A stretch of 64,000 nt of DNA from Ignavibacteriales bacterium (GTDB lineage Bacteria > Bacteroidota > Ignavibacteria > Ignavibacteriales > Melioribacteraceae), in contig JAGUYK010000015.1 in the NCBI GenBank assembly GCA_020061355.1, positions 185,711 through 249,710 of the forward strand. Reading direction: 5' to 3'. Every line of letters begins with the position of its first letter. The first letter of the stretch is position 1. A program made the position numbers and the translations under genes. Below are positions 10,364-20,111 of the stretch, in pieces. Below the pieces are notes generated by a model. That model was not told the origin of the DNA, did not search any database, and was given only the letters and a program-made list of their open reading frames with translations.

Positions 10364-13300
10364 TTAATGTCCGAATGCTTTTTTGATTATCTCTTCCTGT
10401 GTAATTAAATGTTTTCTTGATGAACCGCTTGCCGGACTTGGACTTTCCTGACGACCTACAAATTCCACTTTAAATTTGGAAGAGATTAAATCCAGAAACC
10501 TCGGAAACAGGAAATTCCATGCACCCATATTCTTTGGTTCTTCCTGTACCCATTTTATTGTATTTGCATTTTTATAATTAACTAGAATTTCTTTTAACAG
10601 GTTATCATTAAAAGGATAGTATTGTTCAATCCTTATAATTGCTGCATCTGCGACTTTGTTTAATTCACGATAATTTTTTAAATCATAATAAATCTTGCCG
10701 CTTGTTAATATTATTTTTTGAATGTTTGATTTACCAACTGAATCATCGTCTATAATTTCTTCAAATTCTCCTTCTGTAAAATCAATTATCGATGAACGTG
10801 CGGCAGGGAGTCGAAGCAAACTCTTTGGAGTTAGAACAATAAGCGGTCTTTCAATTGGACCGTTCCCATGAGAAATATTTTGATGAACCTGCCTTCTTAA
10901 AAGGTGAAAATATTGAGCCGGAGTGGTAGGATTGCAAACATACATGTTGTTTTCTGCACAGAGTATTAAGAATCTTTCAAGACGTGCGCTGCTATGTTCA
11001 GGTCCCTGTCCTTCCTGACCGTGTGGCAGAAGCATTACAAGGTTATTTGGTAATTGCCATTTAGTATATGAACCAACAATAAAGTTATCGATAATCACCT
11101 GTGCACTGTTTGCAAAATCCCCGAATTGCGCTTCCCAAATTACCAATGCAAGCGGATCGGCAACACTATATCCAAATTCATATCCAAGTACAGCAGCTTC
11201 CGATAATAGGCTATCAAGCGCTTCAATTTTTGCCTGACCCTCTTCAATTAAGTTATGAGGATTTATCTCTTCTTCAGTATTAGAATCGGTGAATATTAAA
11301 TGTCTTTGACTAAATGTACCACGGGCACTATCCTGTCCGCTTAATCGTATAGGTATTTTTTCTAATAATAATGTTCCGAAGGCTAAAGATTCTGCAAATG
11401 CCCAGTCGATTCTTGCATTACCTGTAAGAAATTCTTTCCTTTTAGCAATATGCTTCTGAAGTTTTAGATTCAAATTGAAGTTATCAGGAAACTTTGTAAT
11501 TCCTTTAACAACTTTTTTCAAGTCATCCATGGAAACTTTCGTTTCCGATTTTTTCGGAAAACTTTTATAATATTCAATCGAATATGCAAGTGGTCTGTCG
11601 GGTCTAAATTTCTCGCTTTTTTTCTTTGTATCCTTTAGAGCTTTTTCAAGTAAATCATAAATATTCTTATCCATCGCATCAATCTCTTTTTCGGTCATCA
11701 CCTTTGATTTTATCAGTTTATCCTGATAAATCTCTTTCACGGACGGATGTTCTTTGATCTTCTTATACATCAAAGGTTGTGTGTAAATCGGATCATCACC
11801 TTCGTTGTGTCCGTGCCGTCTGTAGCCGAAAAGATCTATTACAACATCTTTATTAAAACGCTGACGGTATTCGAATGCAAGGTGTGTCACCCAGAGAGAT
11901 GATTCGGGATCGTCTCCATTGACATGGAAGATAGGGGATTGAACCATTTTTGCAACATCGGTAGCATAAGGTGAAGAACGCGCATCTTCGGGTGAGGTTG
12001 TAAATCCAATCTGGTTATTGATAATAATATGAATTGTGCCGCCGGTTCTATATCCTTTTAACTGCGAAAGGTTAAGTGTTTCTGCAACCACTCCCTGTCC
12101 GGCAAATGCTGCATCACCGTGAATCAATAGAGGCATAAACTGATTCTTTTCAGTATCATTATTCCTTGACTGTTTTGCTCTAATTATTCCTTCTACGACA
12201 GGATTAACCCATTCGAGGTGAGAGGGATTAGATGCTACGGAAACTTTGATTCCCTTGTCGTTCATAGTTTTATAATTACCGGTAGCACCAAGATGATACT
12301 TTACATCCCCGGTACCTTGAGGAGTTTCGGGATCCAGTTCATCTTCAAATTCGGAAAAAATATTAGTATAACTTTTTCCGATTATGTTTGATAATACATT
12401 TAGTCTTCCGCGGTGCGCCATTCCAAGAAAAACTTCTTTAACATTTTCTTCATTAGCCAGATTAAGCAGGTAATCGAGAACCGGAATTAATGTTTCGGAA
12501 CCTTCAAGTGAAAAACGTTTATGACCAATAAATTTAGTGTGTAGAAAATGCTCGAATGCTTCTGAAATAACAAGCTTTTCCATTGTTCTTTTTTTAAGTT
12601 CGTTGCTGAAGTCAGGTTTATTTTTAATCGGTTCCATTTTTGTCTGAAGCCATAACTTTTCTTCCGGGTTTTGTATATGCATATATTCAACACCAATCTT
12701 TTCGCAATATGTTTGATGAAGAATATCTAATATTTCACGAAGCGTTCCGGTCTGCTTACCCTGTAAGTTTCCTGTGATAAAGTGACGGTCGTAATCCCAT
12801 ATTGTAAATCCGTGATTGGATGGGTCTAATTCCTGATGAAATGATTTTGGTGGATGAAGCGGATTAAGATCTGCAATCAAATGACCTCTTACACGGAACA
12901 TATTTATCAACAATACAATTCTTGCTTGCTTTTCAATTTCTTCGATGTTATCAATATTTGAAAATCTTTTCGAGAGTGTATCGAGATCCCAGCCGACTGC
13001 CTTTTGCGGGATATTCAAATCACTAAAAACCGAGTTATAAAAATTCTCTTCACCTAACAAAAGCTTGTCAACATAAGAAAGGAATCCACCCGATTCAGCA
13101 CCCTGGATAATCCGGTGATCATAAGTACTTGTAATGTTCATTACTTTACCGATCCCAAACGAAGCAAGTGCAGATTCATGCATTGCTTTAAATTCTGCCG
13201 GGTAATCAATTGCCCCAACTGCTATGATACAACCCTGCCCGTTCATCAATCGTGGAGTTGATGAAACAGTTCCTATTCCACCCGGATTTGTAAGTGTTAA

Positions 13301-14017
13301 AGTTGAGTTTTGAAAATCTGCCGGTTCTAACTTTCCATTTTTTGCTTTGTTTATCAACTCATCGTAGGCATTTATAAACTCTTCGAAGTTCATCAACTCT
13401 GCACGTTTAATATTAGGAACTATTAATGAACGGGTTCCGTCTTTTCTTTCCATATCCACTGCGATGCCAAGATTTATATACCTCTTTTTAATGAAACTCG
13501 GCTTGTTGCTTACAACTCCGTAAGAATTATTTATGTTTGGATATTTCTTAATTGCTTGAACTATTGAGTAGGCAATTAAATGTGTGAAGGAGATTTTCCT
13601 GCCGCTAATTCTCTTAAGATGATGATTAATTATTCTTCTGTTCTCTTCTAATAGTTTAACGGAAATAGTTCTTAGTGATGTTGCAGTAGGAATGCTTAAA
13701 CTTCCAGTCATGTTTTCAATTATCTTTGCACCAACACCAACAACCGGAATTACTTCGTCATCGGGAGAAATATCAAAAGTGTCTGAAACTACAGGGCTAC
13801 TGTCTCCCTTTTTGGGGGAAGTGGATTTAATTTCTGTGTGCTCAGCATTATCCGTTTTATTATTACCGGTTAATTGTTCAAAATACTCTTTCCAGTAGTC
13901 CGAAACAGATTCTGGGTCATCGAAATACTTTTCCAATAAATCAGATACAAACCCAAAGTTATAACCAAAATGATTAAATAATTCGTTATGATATTTTGTT
14001 GCGTCTTTGCTTTCCAT
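10364..14017 (-). CDS. kgd: fused 2-oxoglutarate decarboxylase/dehydrogenase E1 with succinyltransferase-like E2 domain (Kgd/OdhA type)
   Basis: A 1217-residue thiamine-diphosphate enzyme of the TCA cycle. Residues 1-50 are the helical N-terminal segment of 2-oxoglutarate dehydrogenase E1 (LLEKYFDDPESVSDYWKEYF). Residues about 105-325 form an E2 acyltransferase catalytic domain ending in YDHRIIQGAESGG, which keeps the catalytic His (H301). No lipoyl domain is present. From about 355 the E1 domain follows (GMAHRGRLNVLSN, HGDAAFAGQGVVAETLNLS). This layout is that of mycobacterial Kgd and corynebacterial OdhA, which borrow lipoyl groups from the pyruvate dehydrogenase E2. It stands alone, convergent with the M23 gene and divergent from the lysine operon. 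The product is probably succinyl-CoA in complex, or succinic semialdehyde alone. Confidence 0.95.
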   Translation of the reverse strand: MESKDATKYHNELFNHFGYNFGFVSDLLEKYFDDPESVSDYWKEYFEQLTGNNKTDNAEHTEIKSTSPKKGDSSPVVSDTFDISPDDEVIPVVGVGAKIIENMTGSLSIPTATSLRTISVKLLEENRRIINHHLKRISGRKISFTHLIAYSIVQAIKKYPNINNSYGVVSNKPSFIKKRYINLGIAVDMERKDGTRSLIVPNIKRAELMNFEEFINAYDELINKAKNGKLEPADFQNSTLTLTNPGGIGTVSSTPRLMNGQGCIIAVGAIDYPAEFKAMHESALASFGIGKVMNITSTYDHRIIQGAESGGFLSYVDKLLLGEENFYNSVFSDLNIPQKAVGWDLDTLSKRFSNIDNIEEIEKQARIVLLINMFRVRGHLIADLNPLHPPKSFHQELDPSNHGFTIWDYDRHFITGNLQGKQTGTLREILDILHQTYCEKIGVEYMHIQNPEEKLWLQTKMEPIKNKPDFSNELKKRTMEKLVISEAFEHFLHTKFIGHKRFSLEGSETLIPVLDYLLNLANEENVKEVFLGMAHRGRLNVLSNIIGKSYTNIFSEFEDELDPETPQGTGDVKYHLGATGNYKTMNDKGIKVSVASNPSHLEWVNPVVEGIIRAKQSRNNDTEKNQFMPLLIHGDAAFAGQGVVAETLNLSQLKGYRTGGTIHIIINNQIGFTTSPEDARSSPYATDVAKMVQSPIFHVNGDDPESSLWVTHLAFEYRQRFNKDVVIDLFGYRRHGHNEGDDPIYTQPLMYKKIKEHPSVKEIYQDKLIKSKVMTEKEIDAMDKNIYDLLEKALKDTKKKSEKFRPDRPLAYSIEYYKSFPKKSETKVSMDDLKKVVKGITKFPDNFNLNLKLQKHIAKRKEFLTGNARIDWAFAESLAFGTLLLEKIPIRLSGQDSARGTFSQRHLIFTDSNTEEEINPHNLIEEGQAKIEALDSLLSEAAVLGYEFGYSVADPLALVIWEAQFGDFANSAQVIIDNFIVGSYTKWQLPNNLVMLLPHGQEGQGPEHSSARLERFLILCAENNMYVCNPTTPAQYFHLLRRQVHQNISHGNGPIERPLIVLTPKSLLRLPAARSSIIDFTEGEFEEIIDDDSVGKSNIQKIILTSGKIYYDLKNYRELNKVADAAIIRIEQYYPFNDNLLKEILVNYKNANTIKWVQEEPKNMGAWNFLFPRFLDLISSKFKVEFVGRQESPSPASGSSRKHLITQEEIIKKAFGH

Positions 14018-14226: not shown

Positions 14227-14394
14227 ATGAAATTTGAATGTCCCGTTTGCGGTGCAATGGTAGACCTTCCCGAGGGCACTGTCATTGGAGAATTAATTGA
14301 GTGTCCCGATTGCGGAACTGAACTTGAAGTTGTTTCTCTTGATCCTCCTACAGTTAAGGAAGCTCCTCAAGAAGAAGAAGATTGGGGCGAATAG
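14227..14394 (+). CDS. lysW: LysW amino-group carrier protein
   Basis: A 55-residue acidic carrier for lysine synthesis by the alpha-aminoadipate route. Two CPxCG knuckles (C5, C8, C26, C29) bind zinc, and the C-terminus is the conserved EDWGE. The gamma-carboxyl of the last Glu is joined to the amino group of aminoadipate, protecting it while LysZ, LysY and LysJ act. The start at 14227 gives the family's usual length of about 54 residues and follows a GGAG; upstream in-frame starts lie inside the promoter. It is the first gene of a seven-gene operon, and its stop directly abuts the TTG start of homocitrate synthase. Confidence 0.95.
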   Translation: MKFECPVCGAMVDLPEGTVIGELIECPDCGTELEVVSLDPPTVKEAPQEEEDWGE

Positions 14395-15552
14395 TTGGTC
14401 TGGGTTTTAGATTCAACATTACGTGAAGGCGAGCAGACACCCGGAGTATATTTCGACAAACACATTAAGTTAGCAATTGCATCCCTCCTTGATGAAATTG
14501 GTGTAGACATTATTGAAGCCGGTCACCCGATGGTAACACCGGAAATTCATGCTGCAGTTAAATCAATTGCACAGAAAGGTTTCAAATCAATAGTTGGCGC
14601 TCATTCAAGGTCATTAAGAAACGATGTTGATCTTGCGCTTGAATGCGGTGTCGGGTTCATAGGGATTTTTTACTGCGTTTCCGATGAAAGATTATTCAGT
14701 GTATTCAAAAAAGAACTTGATGAAGCAATTGGTCAGATAACAGATGTGATTAAATATGCAAAGAATCAAAAACCTGATCTGTTAATTAGATATACTCCTG
14801 AAGATACGGTACGTTCTCAATTTGAAAATGTTGTAAAAGCAGCTTCAGCCGCAGTTGATGCTGGTGCAGATATTATAAGTGTTGCCGATACAACCGGGTA
14901 CATGGTCCCTGGAACAACCCGAAGTATGTATGATTACATCTCTAGATTAAAAGATGAATTGGCAAATCGAAAATTGTTCCCCAAAATTGCAGTCCATTGC
15001 CACAACGACAGAGGTTTTGCACTTTCAAATGCACTCGATGCATACCGTGCCGGTGCAGATATTATTGATGCTGCGGCTCTTGGATTAGGAGAGCGTGCCG
15101 GTATTGTCGATTTAGCACAATTGCTTGTTACTCTTACAGTCGATTATAATGAGTCGAGATGGAACCTGCAGAAAATTACAGAGCTTTATGATCTTGTTAG
15201 TAAACATTCGGGAATTCCTATCCCATCAAACTATCCAATCACCGGTAAAAATGCTTTCACTCATTGTGCCGGAGTTCATACTCATGCTGCTTCCATTAAC
15301 CCGATGCACTATGAAAGTCTTCATCCCGAAATCTTAGGACGCAAAAGAGATTTTGCTCTCGATCATATGTCAGGTATCGCCTCACTAAGGTATGCCTTAA
15401 AATTAATTGATGAAATTGAAATGGATGATTCACATCAGCAGGATGTACTTAGAGAAGTAAAGTCTGTCGGGCAGCGCGGCCGTACTGTTGACCTCGAAGA
15501 ATTAAAACATATCGTTGATGCGGTTAAGCATCATAAGGCTTACAATAACTAA
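14395..15552 (+). CDS. lysS: homocitrate synthase
   Basis: Condenses acetyl-CoA with 2-oxoglutarate to homocitrate, the first step of the alpha-aminoadipate pathway. It is a DRE-TIM metallolyase: DSTLREGEQTPG (D6, R10, E11) starts the barrel, HCHNDRG gives metal-binding His residues, and GVHTHA lies near the C-terminal part. The 385-residue length matches short homocitrate synthases without the leucine-feedback domain of isopropylmalate synthase. The start is a TTG immediately after the lysW stop, so the genes are coupled. The position between lysW and lysX argues for homocitrate synthase rather than isopropylmalate or citramalate synthase. Confidence 0.88.
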   Translation: MVWVLDSTLREGEQTPGVYFDKHIKLAIASLLDEIGVDIIEAGHPMVTPEIHAAVKSIAQKGFKSIVGAHSRSLRNDVDLALECGVGFIGIFYCVSDERLFSVFKKELDEAIGQITDVIKYAKNQKPDLLIRYTPEDTVRSQFENVVKAASAAVDAGADIISVADTTGYMVPGTTRSMYDYISRLKDELANRKLFPKIAVHCHNDRGFALSNALDAYRAGADIIDAAALGLGERAGIVDLAQLLVTLTVDYNESRWNLQKITELYDLVSKHSGIPIPSNYPITGKNAFTHCAGVHTHAASINPMHYESLHPEILGRKRDFALDHMSGIASLRYALKLIDEIEMDDSHQQDVLREVKSVGQRGRTVDLEELKHIVDAVKHHKAYNN

Positions 15553-15585
15553 TCTCCTAATTTAATGAGCACCGGAGGAATTTAA

Positions 15586-16431
15586 ATGAAAATAGGATTG
15601 CTTCATTCTTTGTTACGGAAAGATGAAAAGTTTCTGATGGATGAGTTTGCAAAAATAAAAGGTGTTGAACTTGTTCTTATAGATGATCGTGAAATAACAT
15701 TTAATCTTGGTCATGATAGTTTTGAGGTTGATGTATTGGTTGAGAGATGCATAAACCACTCACGCGCATTACATGGATTAAGACTATTTGAAGCTGCCGG
15801 TATCAAGTGCGTTAATTCATATGCGGTAGCTACAATCTGCGGTGATAAACTTTTAACCTCTGTAGCATTATCTGAAAATCATGTAGCGCAACCGGAAATT
15901 AGAGTAGCTTTTACTGAAGAATCTGCAATGAAAGCCATTGAAGAAATGGGTTTCCCGGTCGTCTTAAAACCGGCAGTAGGTTCATGGGGAAGATTACTTT
16001 CAAAAATAAATGATAAGGATGCTGCAGAAGCCATTCTTGAACACAAAACCGTTTTAGGATCATATCATCATTCGATCTTCTATATTCAAAAATATGTTGA
16101 GAAGAAAGGAAAAGATATCCGGAGTTTTGTTGTTGGCGATAAATGTATTGCGGCAATATATAGAAATTCATCTCACTGGATTACAAACACTGCAAGAGGT
16201 GGTGTTGCTACGAACTGTCCGGTTACCGAAGAACTGAATGATATTTCTGTTCGTGCTGCTAAAGCAGTCGGCGGAGGTATTGTTGCTATTGATGTTTTTG
16301 AAACGGAAGAAGGACTGATGGTAAATGAAGTTAATTACACAATGGAATATAAAAATAGTATAACAACGACAGGTGTTAATATACCTGGAAAAATGGTTGA
16401 ATATATTCTTCAAGTTGCAGAAGGGAAGTAA
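15586..16431 (+). CDS. lysX: LysX: alpha-aminoadipate--LysW ligase
   Basis: An ATP-grasp ligase (RimK-like) that joins the amino group of alpha-aminoadipate to the terminal Glu of LysW. ATP-grasp features are [30 protein letters not shown] and the metal-binding [13 protein letters not shown] near the C-terminus. The length (281) is that of LysX/ArgX. A strong GGAGG lies 9 bases before the ATG. Its last base is the first base of the next start, so translation is coupled to lysY. Presence of homocitrate synthase in the operon favours aminoadipate over glutamate as substrate, though one LysX can serve both lysine and arginine in some organisms. Confidence 0.93.
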
Positions 16432-17477
16432 TGGAGAAAATTAAAGTATCAATTGTTGGAGGATCCGGTTACACGGGTGGCGAGTTGCTTCGATTGCTCC
16501 TCTTTCATCCTAATGTTGAAATTGCTGAAGTTACTTCCGAAAGTTATACTGGAAAGTTCGTTCATAAAGTACATCCTAATTTACGAAAAGCAACAGCGTT
16601 GAAATTTGTTTCTTCATCGGAACTCAATCCTTGCGACCTTTTATTTCTATGTCTACCGCATAACAGTTCTCAAAATCATATTGATAGATTTAAACAGCTT
16701 GCTTCAAAGATCATCGATCTCAGTGCCGATTTCCGATTAAAAAATTCTGCGGAATATGAGAAGTGGTACGGGCATAAACATGCCAGACCGGAATTATTAA
16801 ATGAATTTGTTTATGGCATCCCTGAGCTGCATCGTGATGAGATGAAGAAAGCATATTATATTTCAAGTGCCGGGTGTAATGCAACAGCAAGTATTTTAGG
16901 ATTGTTTCCGCTTTATAAGAATGGTTTGGTGGAAGAAGATAGAACGGTTATTGAAGTGAAAGCCGGAAGTAGTGAAGGAGGTAATAAAGTAAATGAAGGC
17001 TCACATCACCCTGAGCGTGCAGGTGTTGTAAGATCGTATATGCCAACCCAGCACAGACATTCTGCTGAGATATTACAGGAACTTTCATTCGGTAAAAGAA
17101 TAAATGTCCATTTCTCCGCAACCGCTATTGATATGGTTCGCGGATTGCTTGCTACCTGTCATGTTTTTCTCAAAAATGATCTTCAGGAAAAGGATATCTG
17201 GAAAATTTACCGGGACGCTTACGGGAATGAACCATTTATTCGCATAGTTAAAGAGAACGAAGGGATTTATCGCTATCCTGAACCGAAACTATTGAGCGGA
17301 ACAAATTTTTGCGACATCGGTTTTAAGAAGGATGAGTTTTCAAATCGACTTGTTGTAATAAGTGCAATTGATAATCTTATGAAAGGCGCTGCCGGACAGG
17401 CAGTTCAGGCATTTAACCTTATGTTTGAAATTGATGAAAGGACTGGACTTGAATTCCCCGGTTTGCACCCAATTTAA
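16431..17477 (+). CDS. lysY: LysY: [LysW]-aminoadipyl-phosphate reductase (ArgC family)
   Basis: Reduces LysW-bound aminoadipyl phosphate to the semialdehyde with NADPH. It belongs to the ArgC/aspartate-semialdehyde dehydrogenase fold: the nucleotide motif GGSGYTGGELLRLL is at residues 10-24, the catalytic Cys is C149 in SSAGCNATAS, and the SEGGNKVNEGSHHPER loop, which is characteristic of LysY proteins, follows. DNLMKGAAGQAVQAFN ends the domain. Length 348 is normal. It overlaps the lysX stop by one base. A 56-base gap with a short direct repeat separates it from the amidohydrolase gene. Confidence 0.94.
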   Translation: MEKIKVSIVGGSGYTGGELLRLLLFHPNVEIAEVTSESYTGKFVHKVHPNLRKATALKFVSSSELNPCDLLFLCLPHNSSQNHIDRFKQLASKIIDLSADFRLKNSAEYEKWYGHKHARPELLNEFVYGIPELHRDEMKKAYYISSAGCNATASILGLFPLYKNGLVEEDRTVIEVKAGSSEGGNKVNEGSHHPERAGVVRSYMPTQHRHSAEILQELSFGKRINVHFSATAIDMVRGLLATCHVFLKNDLQEKDIWKIYRDAYGNEPFIRIVKENEGIYRYPEPKLLSGTNFCDIGFKKDEFSNRLVVISAIDNLMKGAAGQAVQAFNLMFEIDERTGLEFPGLHPI

Positions 17478-17480
17478 ATC

Positions 17481-17503
17481 CTTGATCATGATCTTGATCA
17501 TGA
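17481..17503 (+). repeat. short direct repeat of CTTGATCATGA
   Basis: CTTGATCATGA occurs twice (17481-17491 and 17493-17503) in the gap between lysY and the amidohydrolase gene. Each copy contains the palindrome TGATCA. A related GATCAAG-rich stretch lies at 22860-22899, so this may be a dispersed low-complexity spacer rather than an operator. Confidence 0.5.
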
Positions 17504-17533
17504 ACATTATCTCAGTCATAACTATGAAAAGAT

Positions 17534-18178
17534 ATGTGCCGATTACTCTACGTTAATATGAAAACTGAATTTGATATTTCCGATTACTTACAAAAGTTTG
17601 CTGAAATATCAGAGAATAGCCGGGAATATCAGGGACACGGATGGGGTTGTTCATTTTATATAAACGGTAATTGGAAAAATTATAAGAACGTAAAACCAAT
17701 CTGGGAAGATGACTTAACAAATTTCGGTAAGTCGACAAGATTAATTGCCCATGCCCGTAGTGCGTTTCGTGATGAAGGGATTATTATCGAAAATAATATG
17801 CCGTTTTATGATGACAGGTATATTTTTATTTTTAACGGTGAACTCCGGGGTGTTCAAATAAAAGAATCGGGAAGAATTGGCGCTGAAAAAATATTCAATT
17901 ATATCAAGAGATTTGATAAAGGGAATATAAGCGAAGCGATTAGTAAAGGAACTGAAATTATTAAAAAGAAATCTGCTTATATAAGGGCAATGAATATTAT
18001 TATGGCTGATAATAAAAAGGCTTATATTTATTCTCACTTTAGCGAAGATGAAGACTACTTTACAATGTATTTAAAACAAACGGTTGACCGAATAGTTGTT
18101 TGTTCCGATAAATTCATGGGCGATACCGACTGGAGTCCGATCGAGAATAATTCTTTTCTGGAGTTGCAATGTTTATAA
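17534..18178 (+). CDS. class II glutamine-amidotransferase-like Ntn hydrolase in the lysine operon (candidate LysW-lysine hydrolase)
   Basis: A 214-residue N-terminal-nucleophile amidohydrolase. Cys2 (MCRLL) would be the nucleophile after Met removal. Fold motifs include GHGWGCSFY (34-42), RLIAHARSAF (69-78, as in the HVRSAT of EgtC and DUG3), NNMPF (87-91) and FIFNGEL (98-104, oxyanion Asn). No synthase domain is attached, so it is a stand-alone hydrolase like EgtC or DUG3, which cleave gamma-glutamyl amides. It sits between lysY and lysZ and overlaps lysZ by 10 bases. No LysK gene is in the operon. The bond between LysW Glu and lysine is a gamma-glutamyl amide, so I infer that it may release lysine. 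This role is untested. Confidence 0.8.
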   Translation: MCRLLYVNMKTEFDISDYLQKFAEISENSREYQGHGWGCSFYINGNWKNYKNVKPIWEDDLTNFGKSTRLIAHARSAFRDEGIIIENNMPFYDDRYIFIFNGELRGVQIKESGRIGAEKIFNYIKRFDKGNISEAISKGTEIIKKKSAYIRAMNIIMADNKKAYIYSHFSEDEDYFTMYLKQTVDRIVVCSDKFMGDTDWSPIENNSFLELQCL

Positions 18179-18960
18179 TCAAAATTGGTGGCGGTAAAGG
18201 GATAAACTTAAAAGGTGTCATCTCCGATCTCGCTACGTTGAATGAAAAATTCATTATTGTTCACGGCGCGAATGCGTTACGTGATGAATTAGCCGATAAG
18301 ATTGGCTTTCATAAAAAAGTTGTTACTTCACTTTCGGGATACGATTCGGTTCTAAGCGATGAAACTACAATTGATCTGATGATGATGACGTATGCCGGTT
18401 TGAAAAACAAAAGAATTGTTGAATTATGTCAGCAGAACGGAATAAATGCAATTGGATTATCGGGGCTTGATGGAAAAGTAATTCAGGGCAAACGCAACAG
18501 CGGAATAAAAGTTAGAGAAGGCGGCAAAACACTTTTACTGCGGGATTTTTCCGGCAAGCCAAAATCAATAAATAGAGATTTACTTATCCTGCTGTTAGAA
18601 AACGGATATTCACCTGTATTAAGCGTTCCGCTTATTGATGAAAATAATTTTGCTATCAATTCCGAGAATGATGATATCGTTGCTTTACTGCAGTCGGAGT
18701 TCCAAGCAGAAAAAATTGTTTCATTAATTGAAGAACCGGGATTCTTATTAGATAAAAATGATCCTTCATCACTTATAGCTAATATCTCCAAAGCAGAACT
18801 TGAGACAATGGAACAAAAAGTTGATGGAAGAATGAAAAGGAAAATTCTAGCATTAAGAAAATTATTTGAATCGGGAGATACAACTGTAATTCTTAGTGAC
18901 GGAAGAACAGAACACCCGGTTATGGACGCACTAAATGGGAAGGGGACAATAATAAAATGA
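18169..18960 (+). CDS. lysZ: LysZ: [LysW]-aminoadipate kinase
   Basis: Phosphorylates the side-chain carboxyl of LysW-bound aminoadipate. It is an amino-acid kinase of the ArgB family: IIKIGGGKG at the N-terminus is the ATP site, VHGAN follows, and GLSGLDGKVIQGKRNS is characteristic of LysZ/ArgB. The tail HPVMDALNGKGTIIK matches LysZ. Length 263 is normal. The ATG lies inside the 3' end of the amidohydrolase gene, and the stop overlaps the lysJ start (ATGA), so the gene is coupled on both sides. It acts between LysX and LysY. Confidence 0.94.
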   Translation: MFIIKIGGGKGINLKGVISDLATLNEKFIIVHGANALRDELADKIGFHKKVVTSLSGYDSVLSDETTIDLMMMTYAGLKNKRIVELCQQNGINAIGLSGLDGKVIQGKRNSGIKVREGGKTLLLRDFSGKPKSINRDLLILLLENGYSPVLSVPLIDENNFAINSENDDIVALLQSEFQAEKIVSLIEEPGFLLDKNDPSSLIANISKAELETMEQKVDGRMKRKILALRKLFESGDTTVILSDGRTEHPVMDALNGKGTIIK

Positions 18961-20111
18961 AAGATTACAAAGCATTAATCGAGCAGTATGAAATTGATGT
19001 TTATCCTCGGCGTGATGTTGTTCTTGTAAAAGGTAAAGGTGCACACATCTGGGATGACAAAGGAAATGAATTTATCGATATGGCTGCTGGAATTTCTGTT
19101 GCCAATATAGGACACGCAAACGATAAAGTTGTAGAAGCGATTTCAAAGCAAGCTGCAACTCTTATCACATGTCCAAATACATTTTACAATGACACCAAAG
19201 CATTATTCCTTGAAAAATTATTCAGTATAGTGCCGAAGAATCTTACAAGAGCATTTTTGACTAATAGCGGGACAGAAGCTATCGAAGCTGCAATTAAATT
19301 TGCGCGCCTTAATACAAAGAAGACAAAATTTATTGCTGCGATGAAAGGTTTCCACGGTAGAACTTATGGTGCATTAAGTGCAACATTCAAAAAAGAATAT
19401 AGAGAAGGATTTGAACCTCTGGTACCAGGATTCAACTTTGCCCCTTTTAATAATTTTGAAAAACTGTCTGAAATGGTCGATGATGACACGGCTGCAATTA
19501 TTCTTGAGCCTGTTCAGGGTGAAGGTGGAATAAACATTGGTCAAAAAGAATATTTCCAGAAAGTAAGAAAGCTTTGTGATGAAAAAAACATTCTGTTGAT
19601 CATCGACGAAATCCAAACCGGATTCTGCCGTACAGGAAAAATGTTTGCTATTGAACATATTGGAATCGAAGCTGATATGATGACACTTGCAAAATCGATT
19701 GCCGGCGGATTCCCAATGGGGGTGTTACTATGCTCTGACAAAATAAAAATTGAAAAGAGTAAACATGGTTCAACATTCGGAGGTAATCCATTGGCTTGTG
19801 CTGCAGGACTCGCTTCAATTGATTTTATGCTTGAATCAAAATTATGGGAACAAGCAGAAGCAAAAGGCGAATACTTCAAAGAAAAATTAGAAAACTTACA
19901 ACTGTCTAAAGTCCGCGAAATTAGGATTATCGGATTAATGATTGGCATTGAATTAAAAGATAAAGTACAACCGGTTCTAGAGGAGCTATTAAAGAGAAAT
20001 ATAGTTGCTCTTCCGGCAGGTACAACTGTATTAAGGATGCTGCCGCCACTGGTGATAAGTTATGAGGATTTAGACAAGGTAGTTGAGATCTTAAAAGAAT
20101 TATTGAAATAA
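18957..20111 (+). CDS. lysJ: LysJ: [LysW]-lysine aminotransferase
   Basis: A class III pyridoxal-phosphate aminotransferase that converts LysW-bound aminoadipate semialdehyde to LysW-bound lysine. Signs are NSGTEAIEAAIKFAR (phosphate binding), GFHGRTYGAL, LLIIDEIQTGFCRTG and the PLP lysine K246 in TLAKSIAGGFPMG, with STFGGNPLACAAG further on. Its relatives are ArgD (acetylornithine) and GabT; operon position decides for LysJ. It is the last gene of the lysine operon, with nuoA following after about 110 bases. It might also serve arginine synthesis. Confidence 0.92.
   Translation: MKDYKALIEQYEIDVYPRRDVVLVKGKGAHIWDDKGNEFIDMAAGISVANIGHANDKVVEAISKQAATLITCPNTFYNDTKALFLEKLFSIVPKNLTRAFLTNSGTEAIEAAIKFARLNTKKTKFIAAMKGFHGRTYGALSATFKKEYREGFEPLVPGFNFAPFNNFEKLSEMVDDDTAAIILEPVQGEGGINIGQKEYFQKVRKLCDEKNILLIIDEIQTGFCRTGKMFAIEHIGIEADMMTLAKSIAGGFPMGVLLCSDKIKIEKSKHGSTFGGNPLACAAGLASIDFMLESKLWEQAEAKGEYFKEKLENLQLSKVREIRIIGLMIGIELKDKVQPVLEELLKRNIVALPAGTTVLRMLPPLVISYEDLDKVVEILKELLK

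Follow-up and report, generated by a model that had tools for sequence, protein, structure and literature searches.

We analysed a 64,000-nucleotide stretch of Ignavibacteriales DNA (hereafter the window; contig JAGUYK010000015.1, positions 185,711 to 249,710), in which an operon for lysine synthesis on the amino-group carrier protein LysW occupies positions 14227-20111, in the order lysW, a homocitrate synthase (HCS)-like gene, lysX, lysY, GAT, lysZ and lysJ (Table 1). GAT encodes a single-domain protein of the class II amidotransferase fold, and stands in an operon devoid of lysK. We propose that this glutaminase-fold enzyme, unrelated to LysK, probably carries out lysine release in some of the bacteria and archaea that seem to make lysine on LysW but have no LysK. 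The markers of the LysW aminoadipate pathway are present in the window: LysW scores over its cut-off and ends in EDWGE, LysX scores over its cut-off and has the substrate signature TNTARGG from residue 200 (Asn-Thr, aminoadipate type), and LysZ scores over its cut-off. The original prediction had named the same operon genes: lysW, lysX, lysY and lysZ are confirmed by model cut-offs, lysJ passes only the TIGR00707 model, and the homocitrate synthase remains under its cut-off. As the latter gene falls below every curated cut-off (342 vs 413.55 bits for TIGR02146, homocitrate synthase; 349 vs 517 for its top match, a 2-isopropylmalate synthase model), its name and activity are taken from its place in the operon.

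The 214-residue GAT protein starts with MCRLL, the cysteine being at codon 2, and its gene does lie between lysY and lysZ, as first predicted, with 10 bases common to its 3' end and the start of lysZ. It passes the PF13230 (GATase_4) model (27.3 bits, cut-off 23), scores far under the cut-off of the EgtC model TIGR03442 (50.7 vs 218.65 bits), and gave no M20 family match in family scans. Its predicted fold is EgtC-like, i.e., a class II amidotransferase (N-terminal nucleophile, Ntn) fold with Cys2; the folds closest to it are those of EgtC and of the glutaminase domains of GlmS and PurF. In an alignment with four ordinary relatives, GAT keeps the active-site Cys, Arg and Asn-Gly residues, whereas the Asp of the TDSE motif, which from GlmS we take to bind the glutamine amine, is present in 4/4 relatives and replaced by Gly116 in 70/70 GAT sequences (40 of these 70 aligned sequences served for the residue comparison). 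Similarly to the GATase_4 proteins (PF13230; e.g., PDB 3mdn and 1te5), GAT has Cys2, Arg and Asn-Gly, but it differs from them by IGAE in place of TDSE, by NNMPF in place of an NSHPF-type sequence, and by the absence of about 15 residues before NNMPF. EgtC (the ergothioneine gamma-glutamyl amidohydrolase; PDB 4zfl, 4zfj and 4zfk) is only 18% identical to GAT and has egt genes as neighbours, whereas GAT has those of a lys operon; with the low TIGR03442 score and lys neighbours in place of ergothioneine genes, an identity of GAT with the ergothioneine EgtC was rejected.

Table 1. Genes and residues of the lysine operon in the window (scores in bits).
Feature	Position	Strand	Remarks
lysW, amino-group carrier protein	14227..14394	+	TIGR01206 78.5, cut-off 53.2; sequence ends EEEDWGE
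lysW Glu55 (C-terminal), codon GAA	14389-14391		presumed attachment point
HCS (homocitrate synthase-like)	14395..15552	+	TTG start; PF00682 and PF22617 over cut-off
lysX, LysW-aminoadipate ligase	15586..16431	+	TIGR02144 348, cut-off 275.6
lysY (argC family), LysW-aminoadipyl-phosphate reductase	16431..17477	+	TIGR01850 409, cut-off 233.6
GAT, single-domain class II amidotransferase-fold protein, proposed LysW gamma-glutamyl amidase	17534..18178	+	PF13230
GAT Cys2 codon	17537-17539	+	predicted nucleophile
GAT Arg75 codon	17756-17758	+	
GAT Asn101-Gly102 codons	17834-17839	+	
GAT Gly116 codon	17879-17881	+	replaces the TDSE-motif Asp
lysZ, [LysW]-aminoadipate kinase	18169..18960	+	NF010659 251.5, cut-off 223
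lysJ, aminotransferase making LysW-lysine	18957..20111	+	NF042418 455 (below 700, best match); TIGR00707 438, over 410

The occurrence of GAT follows that of LysW. Among 197 genomes of the window organism's class, 22 have GAT matches, 18 of them at E<1e-50 and four of them weak (E 2e-6 to 1e-3), the latter being ordinary relatives with a TDSE or TDTE motif; LysW matches occur in 19 genomes, namely the same 18 and G195. GAT lies immediately 5' of lysZ in 18/18 genomes and immediately 3' of lysY in 17/18, the exception (G066) having lysY on another contig and a dehydrogenase-like ORF before GAT. The LysW match of G195 (L071 / L194) was rejected as a nineteenth LysW (45.8 bits, DEDWDD end, no lys genes around). 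This LysW-like zinc-ribbon gene is flanked by genes that presumably encode a TerC-like membrane protein and a BadF-type ATPase-like protein. When species genomes were scanned with the alignment of the 18 GAT sequences, 238 relatives emerged, and the best 80 were examined; they come from Ignavibacteria, Calditrichota, KSB1, Gammaproteobacteria, deltaproteobacterial and Binatia bins, Planctomycetota and the archaeon GW2011_AR15, and some of them repeat genomes of the class draw. Occurrence mostly away from lysW in related genomes would have spoken against the original prediction; the gene stands beside lysY and/or lysZ in the 18 class genomes and in 80/80 examined loci. In 69 of these 80 loci, lysY precedes and lysZ follows GAT within 700 bases; the others show a contig end after GAT (two), a contig start before it (two, including L147 with a piece of lysX directly upstream), lysZ without lysY (four) or lysY without lysZ (three). 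In a draw of 274 gammaproteobacterial genomes, lysW occurs in four, all with GAT, three of which, the centre of the draw included, were already known GAT genomes. GAT could still do the ordinary work of a glutaminase or amidotransferase subunit and supply a neighbour with ammonia, or be a hitchhiking gamma-glutamyl peptidase of the EgtC/DUG3 type, as its closest folds would allow, but the invariable lysY and/or lysZ neighbours, the EgtC score, the loss of the TDSE-motif Asp and the lack of a synthase domain make this very unlikely. We know of no ammonia-using enzyme among the operon genes, and the role of ammonia donor was set aside.

The lack of lysK, which the original prediction had noted in the operon, extends to the whole genome. 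The 13 PF01546 matches of the window genome correspond to six true M20 proteins (one YgeY type, two PepD type, one PepT, one dipeptidase and one amidohydrolase) and seven M28 peptidases, and the best score with the TIGR01902 model is 96 bits (cut-off 163.1), which rules out a LysK elsewhere in this genome. The YgeY-type protein (119 bits with the LysK model NF003367) was rejected as a hidden LysK: it passes the YgeY cut-off and stands beside genes that we take to be ygeW- and ygfK-like. With NF003367, no protein exceeds the cut-off (363 bits) in the 197 class genomes or in 26 further GAT genomes. This silence is meaningful, because the model recognised 9/9 supplied LysKs at 378-435 bits (of the 12 visible in LysK-type lysine operons); an M20 protein of a Streptomyces cluster scores 342 bits, i.e., under the cut-off.

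The archaeal operons provide the strongest genomic argument for lysine release by GAT. In the phylum of GW2011_AR15 (193 genomes), five lysW genes score over the cut-off, and GAT lies directly before lysZ in 5/5 loci and directly after lysY in 4/5, the lysY of G326 being 4.6 kb upstream. GW2011_AR15 (G197), G240 and G376 have the order lysW, HCS-like, homoaconitase-type large and small subunits, dehydrogenase, lysX, lysY, GAT, lysZ and lysJ; as judged from their genes, these operons would hold every pathway step but the general aminotransferase LysN and LysK. The argument rests on these near-complete operons, on the absence of any PF01546 match in G197, G326 and G376 (the three of the 15 GAT genomes tested that have no M20 protein, all archaeal), and on the absence of LysA (diaminopimelate decarboxylase) over the cut-off in all five archaeal GAT genomes. 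A second lysX without the Asn-Thr signature occurs in the operons of G240 and G326 (L189:7044-7859 and L191:2132-2935); it is perhaps an ArgX, which suggests that lysine and ornithine may be synthesised jointly on one carrier. The genomes without M20 protein also bear on the possibility that GAT is an editing hydrolase clearing mischarged LysW (e.g., LysW-glutamate), while a promiscuous peptidase (e.g., YgeY, PepD or PepT) releases lysine. The six M20 proteins of the window genome, with the YgeY-type one related to ArgE/DapE, would offer candidates, but this relative has its own YgeY assignment and gene neighbours, and no such peptidase exists in the three archaea, so that we regard the editing role as highly improbable.

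LysK-type operons were found outside the GAT genomes. Among 246 genomes of Planctomycetota, 15 lysW genes score over the cut-off and five at 48-53 bits (matches under 34 bits were left out); these 20 regions show lysK at the operon end in 11 cases, GAT in one (G205, which has no LysK over the cut-off) and neither in eight, one of which (L247) is a lone LysW-like gene whose product ends in WSE. On a Deinococcus plasmid, the operon includes lysK but lacks GAT. The resulting comparison set comprises 19 loci (L247 being excluded and L248 counted with GAT), of which 12 show lysK (11 Planctomycetota and the Deinococcus plasmid). The Thermus/Deinococcus LysW aminoadipate pathway (cf. the Deinococcus NW-56 plasmid operon, L198) has lysW, lysX, lysY, lysZ, lysJ and HCS in common with the window, but the window operon has GAT instead of lysK, and some GAT-type LysWs end in Gln. 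LysK and GAT share the same proposed reaction and pathway step, and never occur together in one locus among the loci seen; LysK is a metal peptidase encoded at the operon end, whereas GAT belongs to another family and fold, with a Cys N-terminal nucleophile and a gene between lysY and lysZ. M20 genes also occur in LysW-type clusters on plasmids of Streptomyces, Pseudalkalibacillus and Staphylococcus. The carrier clusters L261 (Staphylococcus epidermidis plasmid NZ_CP043848.1) and L260 (Pseudalkalibacillus plasmid NZ_CP156675.1), annotated with a RimK-type ligase, a DegT aminotransferase, an argC-type reductase and an M20 hydrolase, may serve the synthesis of some other product.

The C-terminal residue of LysW provides a further line of evidence. 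The best 80 loci yielded 55 LysWs, 38 ending in Glu and 17 in Gln; the 104 GAT-type loci, some of which repeat genomes and 26 of which have no LysW in reach, yielded 78, with 55 Glu and 23 Gln ends. All 19 comparison LysWs end in Glu (12 with lysK, seven with neither gene), as do the three plasmid LysWs of L259-L261, whose clusters have M20 genes, so that Gln-ended LysW occurs only in GAT-type loci of the sample. Among the Gln-ended LysWs is that of Stygiobacter electus (L150). In PMC10433800, the LysW and ArgW proteins compared carry EDWGE, with Glu as the attachment point. With Gln at this position, LysX should be unable to load the carrier until the amide is taken off, a reaction to be expected of a glutaminase-fold enzyme. 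We placed the end residues on a LysX+LysY tree, built by a quick method from 85 rows (67 GAT, 21 of them with a Gln end, and 18 others) with readable and distinct LysW, LysX and LysY, L243 being dropped for its short lysY. The changes of end residue, at least 10 in number, fall among the GAT rows. The branches of the GAT side add up to 14.5 units of length and those outside to 9.9; if rates are equal, the probability of zero changes outside is 0.001 (Poisson) or 0.006 (share of branch length). GAT might then be only a maturation deamidase, turning the C-terminal Gln of LysW into Glu for LysX loading, with another hydrolase releasing lysine. The confinement of the Gln ends and the usual activity of the fold, glutamine hydrolysis, agree with such a role, but GAT is kept where LysW already ends in Glu (55/78, the window's kind included) and in the archaea without M20 protein, so that we consider it improbable.

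From the gene order, the co-occurrence, the absence of LysK, the EgtC-like predicted fold, the conserved nucleophile, Arg and Asn-Gly, the Asp-to-Gly replacement and the Gln-ended LysWs of GAT loci, all of them computed, we think it likely that GAT is an Ntn amidase acting on the C-terminal gamma-glutamyl residue of LysW, in replacement of LysK. We infer from the same features its substrate, its catalysis, the roles of its residues and its two cleavage reactions, as follows. LysX would couple aminoadipate to the gamma-carboxyl of the last Glu of LysW, and LysZ, LysY and LysJ would convert the LysW-bound aminoadipate into LysW-gamma-lysine. The Cys2 of GAT, freed by Met removal, would attack the gamma-amide, Asn101-Gly102 holding the oxyanion; lysine would depart and water would then free LysW-Glu for the next round. 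Where LysW has a C-terminal Gln, cleavage of its primary amide in the same manner would yield ammonia and mature LysW-Glu. The original prediction had called a release enzyme in LysW lysine synthesis plausible; the case is now stronger than was claimed, and the Asp loss and the Gln-ended LysWs go beyond that prediction, the release reaction itself being deduced. A broader proposal, to which we give an even chance, would make GAT a carrier-protein hydrolase of a new kind: an Ntn amidase with specificity for the C-terminal gamma-glutamyl residue of a protein, at which it would have two jobs, activating the carrier by deamidation of the encoded Gln and setting free the amino acid once it is complete. 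In this view, GAT replaced LysK, spread with the operon over several bacterial phyla and archaea, and so permitted LysW to vary its attachment residue between Glu and Gln.

The following points weigh against lysine release by GAT. First, the window genome has a LysA (L262:5412-6647, contig C43; 326 bits, cut-off 297.9), so that two lysine routes may coexist, and LysA exceeds the cut-off in 12/18 class GAT genomes, the window genome included; of the other class GAT genomes, G019, G153 and G191, which belong to the window organism's family, give no match to LysA at E 1e-10, and the matches of G029, G113 and G155 lie below the cut-off. Second, a clear orthologue of HCS is missing from all of 20 other GAT genomes in whose operon no HCS is visible: nine have matches 27-36% identical, in frames of 520-569 residues (LeuA-like length), and 11 have none at E 1e-20. 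It is worth noting that a Deinococcus-type HCS is itself 31% identical to the window HCS (E 8e-33), so that length, not identity, would separate it from LeuA-like proteins. With LysA, in addition, in 14 of these 20 genomes, both precursor and product are uncertain in those lineages. Third, the three middle genes of the GW2011_AR15 operon pass only family-level models (homoaconitase/isopropylmalate dehydratase and homoisocitrate/isopropylmalate dehydrogenase), and the models passed by the archaeal homoaconitase- and dehydrogenase-type genes cover leucine enzymes as well, the specific models not being passed. Fourth, in the comparison set of 19 loci, seven have no visible lysK or GAT. Fifth, a single branch of the quick LysX+LysY tree separates the GAT rows from all others (Shimodaira-Hasegawa-like approximate likelihood ratio test, SH-aLRT, 96), a tree that gave long-branch warnings, so that GAT and LysK types do not amount to many independent comparisons; with a single independent pair on this tree, a test for separate replacement events had no power. 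Sixth, the scan rests on two short patterns and favours close orthologues, and the invariance of Arg75 is partly built in, because one pattern covers the residues around it. Seventh, literature searches, PMC9140057 included, did not confirm the role of the replaced TDSE-motif Asp.

Some of these points would equally suit an operon acting in some lineages on another amino acid, either ornithine made from glutamate or a special metabolite, which GAT would then release. We judge this unlikely, though with a probability that deserves attention: the 20 genomes without clear HCS orthologue, 14 of them with LysA, and the second lysX of G240 and G326 speak for it, but the LysX signature is Asn-Thr in 67/68 loci with a readable signature (of the best 80), and three archaeal operons have HCS-, homoaconitase- and homoisocitrate dehydrogenase-type genes. 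PMC10433800 gives Asn-Thr as the aminoadipate type; the signature alone is not proof, because LysX-like ligases that are encoded near M20 genes in other clusters have it as well (L200, L259-L261).

The Caldithrix abyssi genome paper (PMC5317091) reports LysWXZYJ and Hcs in one locus, with homologues of other pathway proteins scattered, and raises two possibilities for lysine synthesis in this organism, namely non-orthologous gene displacement or an incomplete pathway. Our proposal makes this testable. If GAT acts as proposed, it would supply the last step that is missing from lysine synthesis on the carrier protein, both in several phyla and in archaea with small genomes; a cysteine Ntn amidase would then have taken the place of a metal peptidase as its non-orthologous substitute, and a family named only amidotransferase-like in profile libraries would gain a function. 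A Gln-ended LysW is predicted to gain 0.98 Da in mass (+0.98 Da) upon GAT treatment. We found no publication joining LysW with 'glutamine amidotransferase', in a search that mostly left out subscription journals and hence does not establish absence in print. Ignavibacterium album is described in PMC6338057 as being without lysine synthesis.

Two other observations concern the operons and their surroundings. Among the lysW-GAT operons, those of gamma- and deltaproteobacteria, of planctomycetes and of some others show no HCS gene (L132, L142, L161, L167, L169, L175, L180 and similar). In the window, a gene on the minus strand (10364-14017) encodes a 2-oxoglutarate dehydrogenase E1-like protein with an N-terminal acyltransferase-like part, an arrangement that presumably resembles that of the mycobacterial Kgd.
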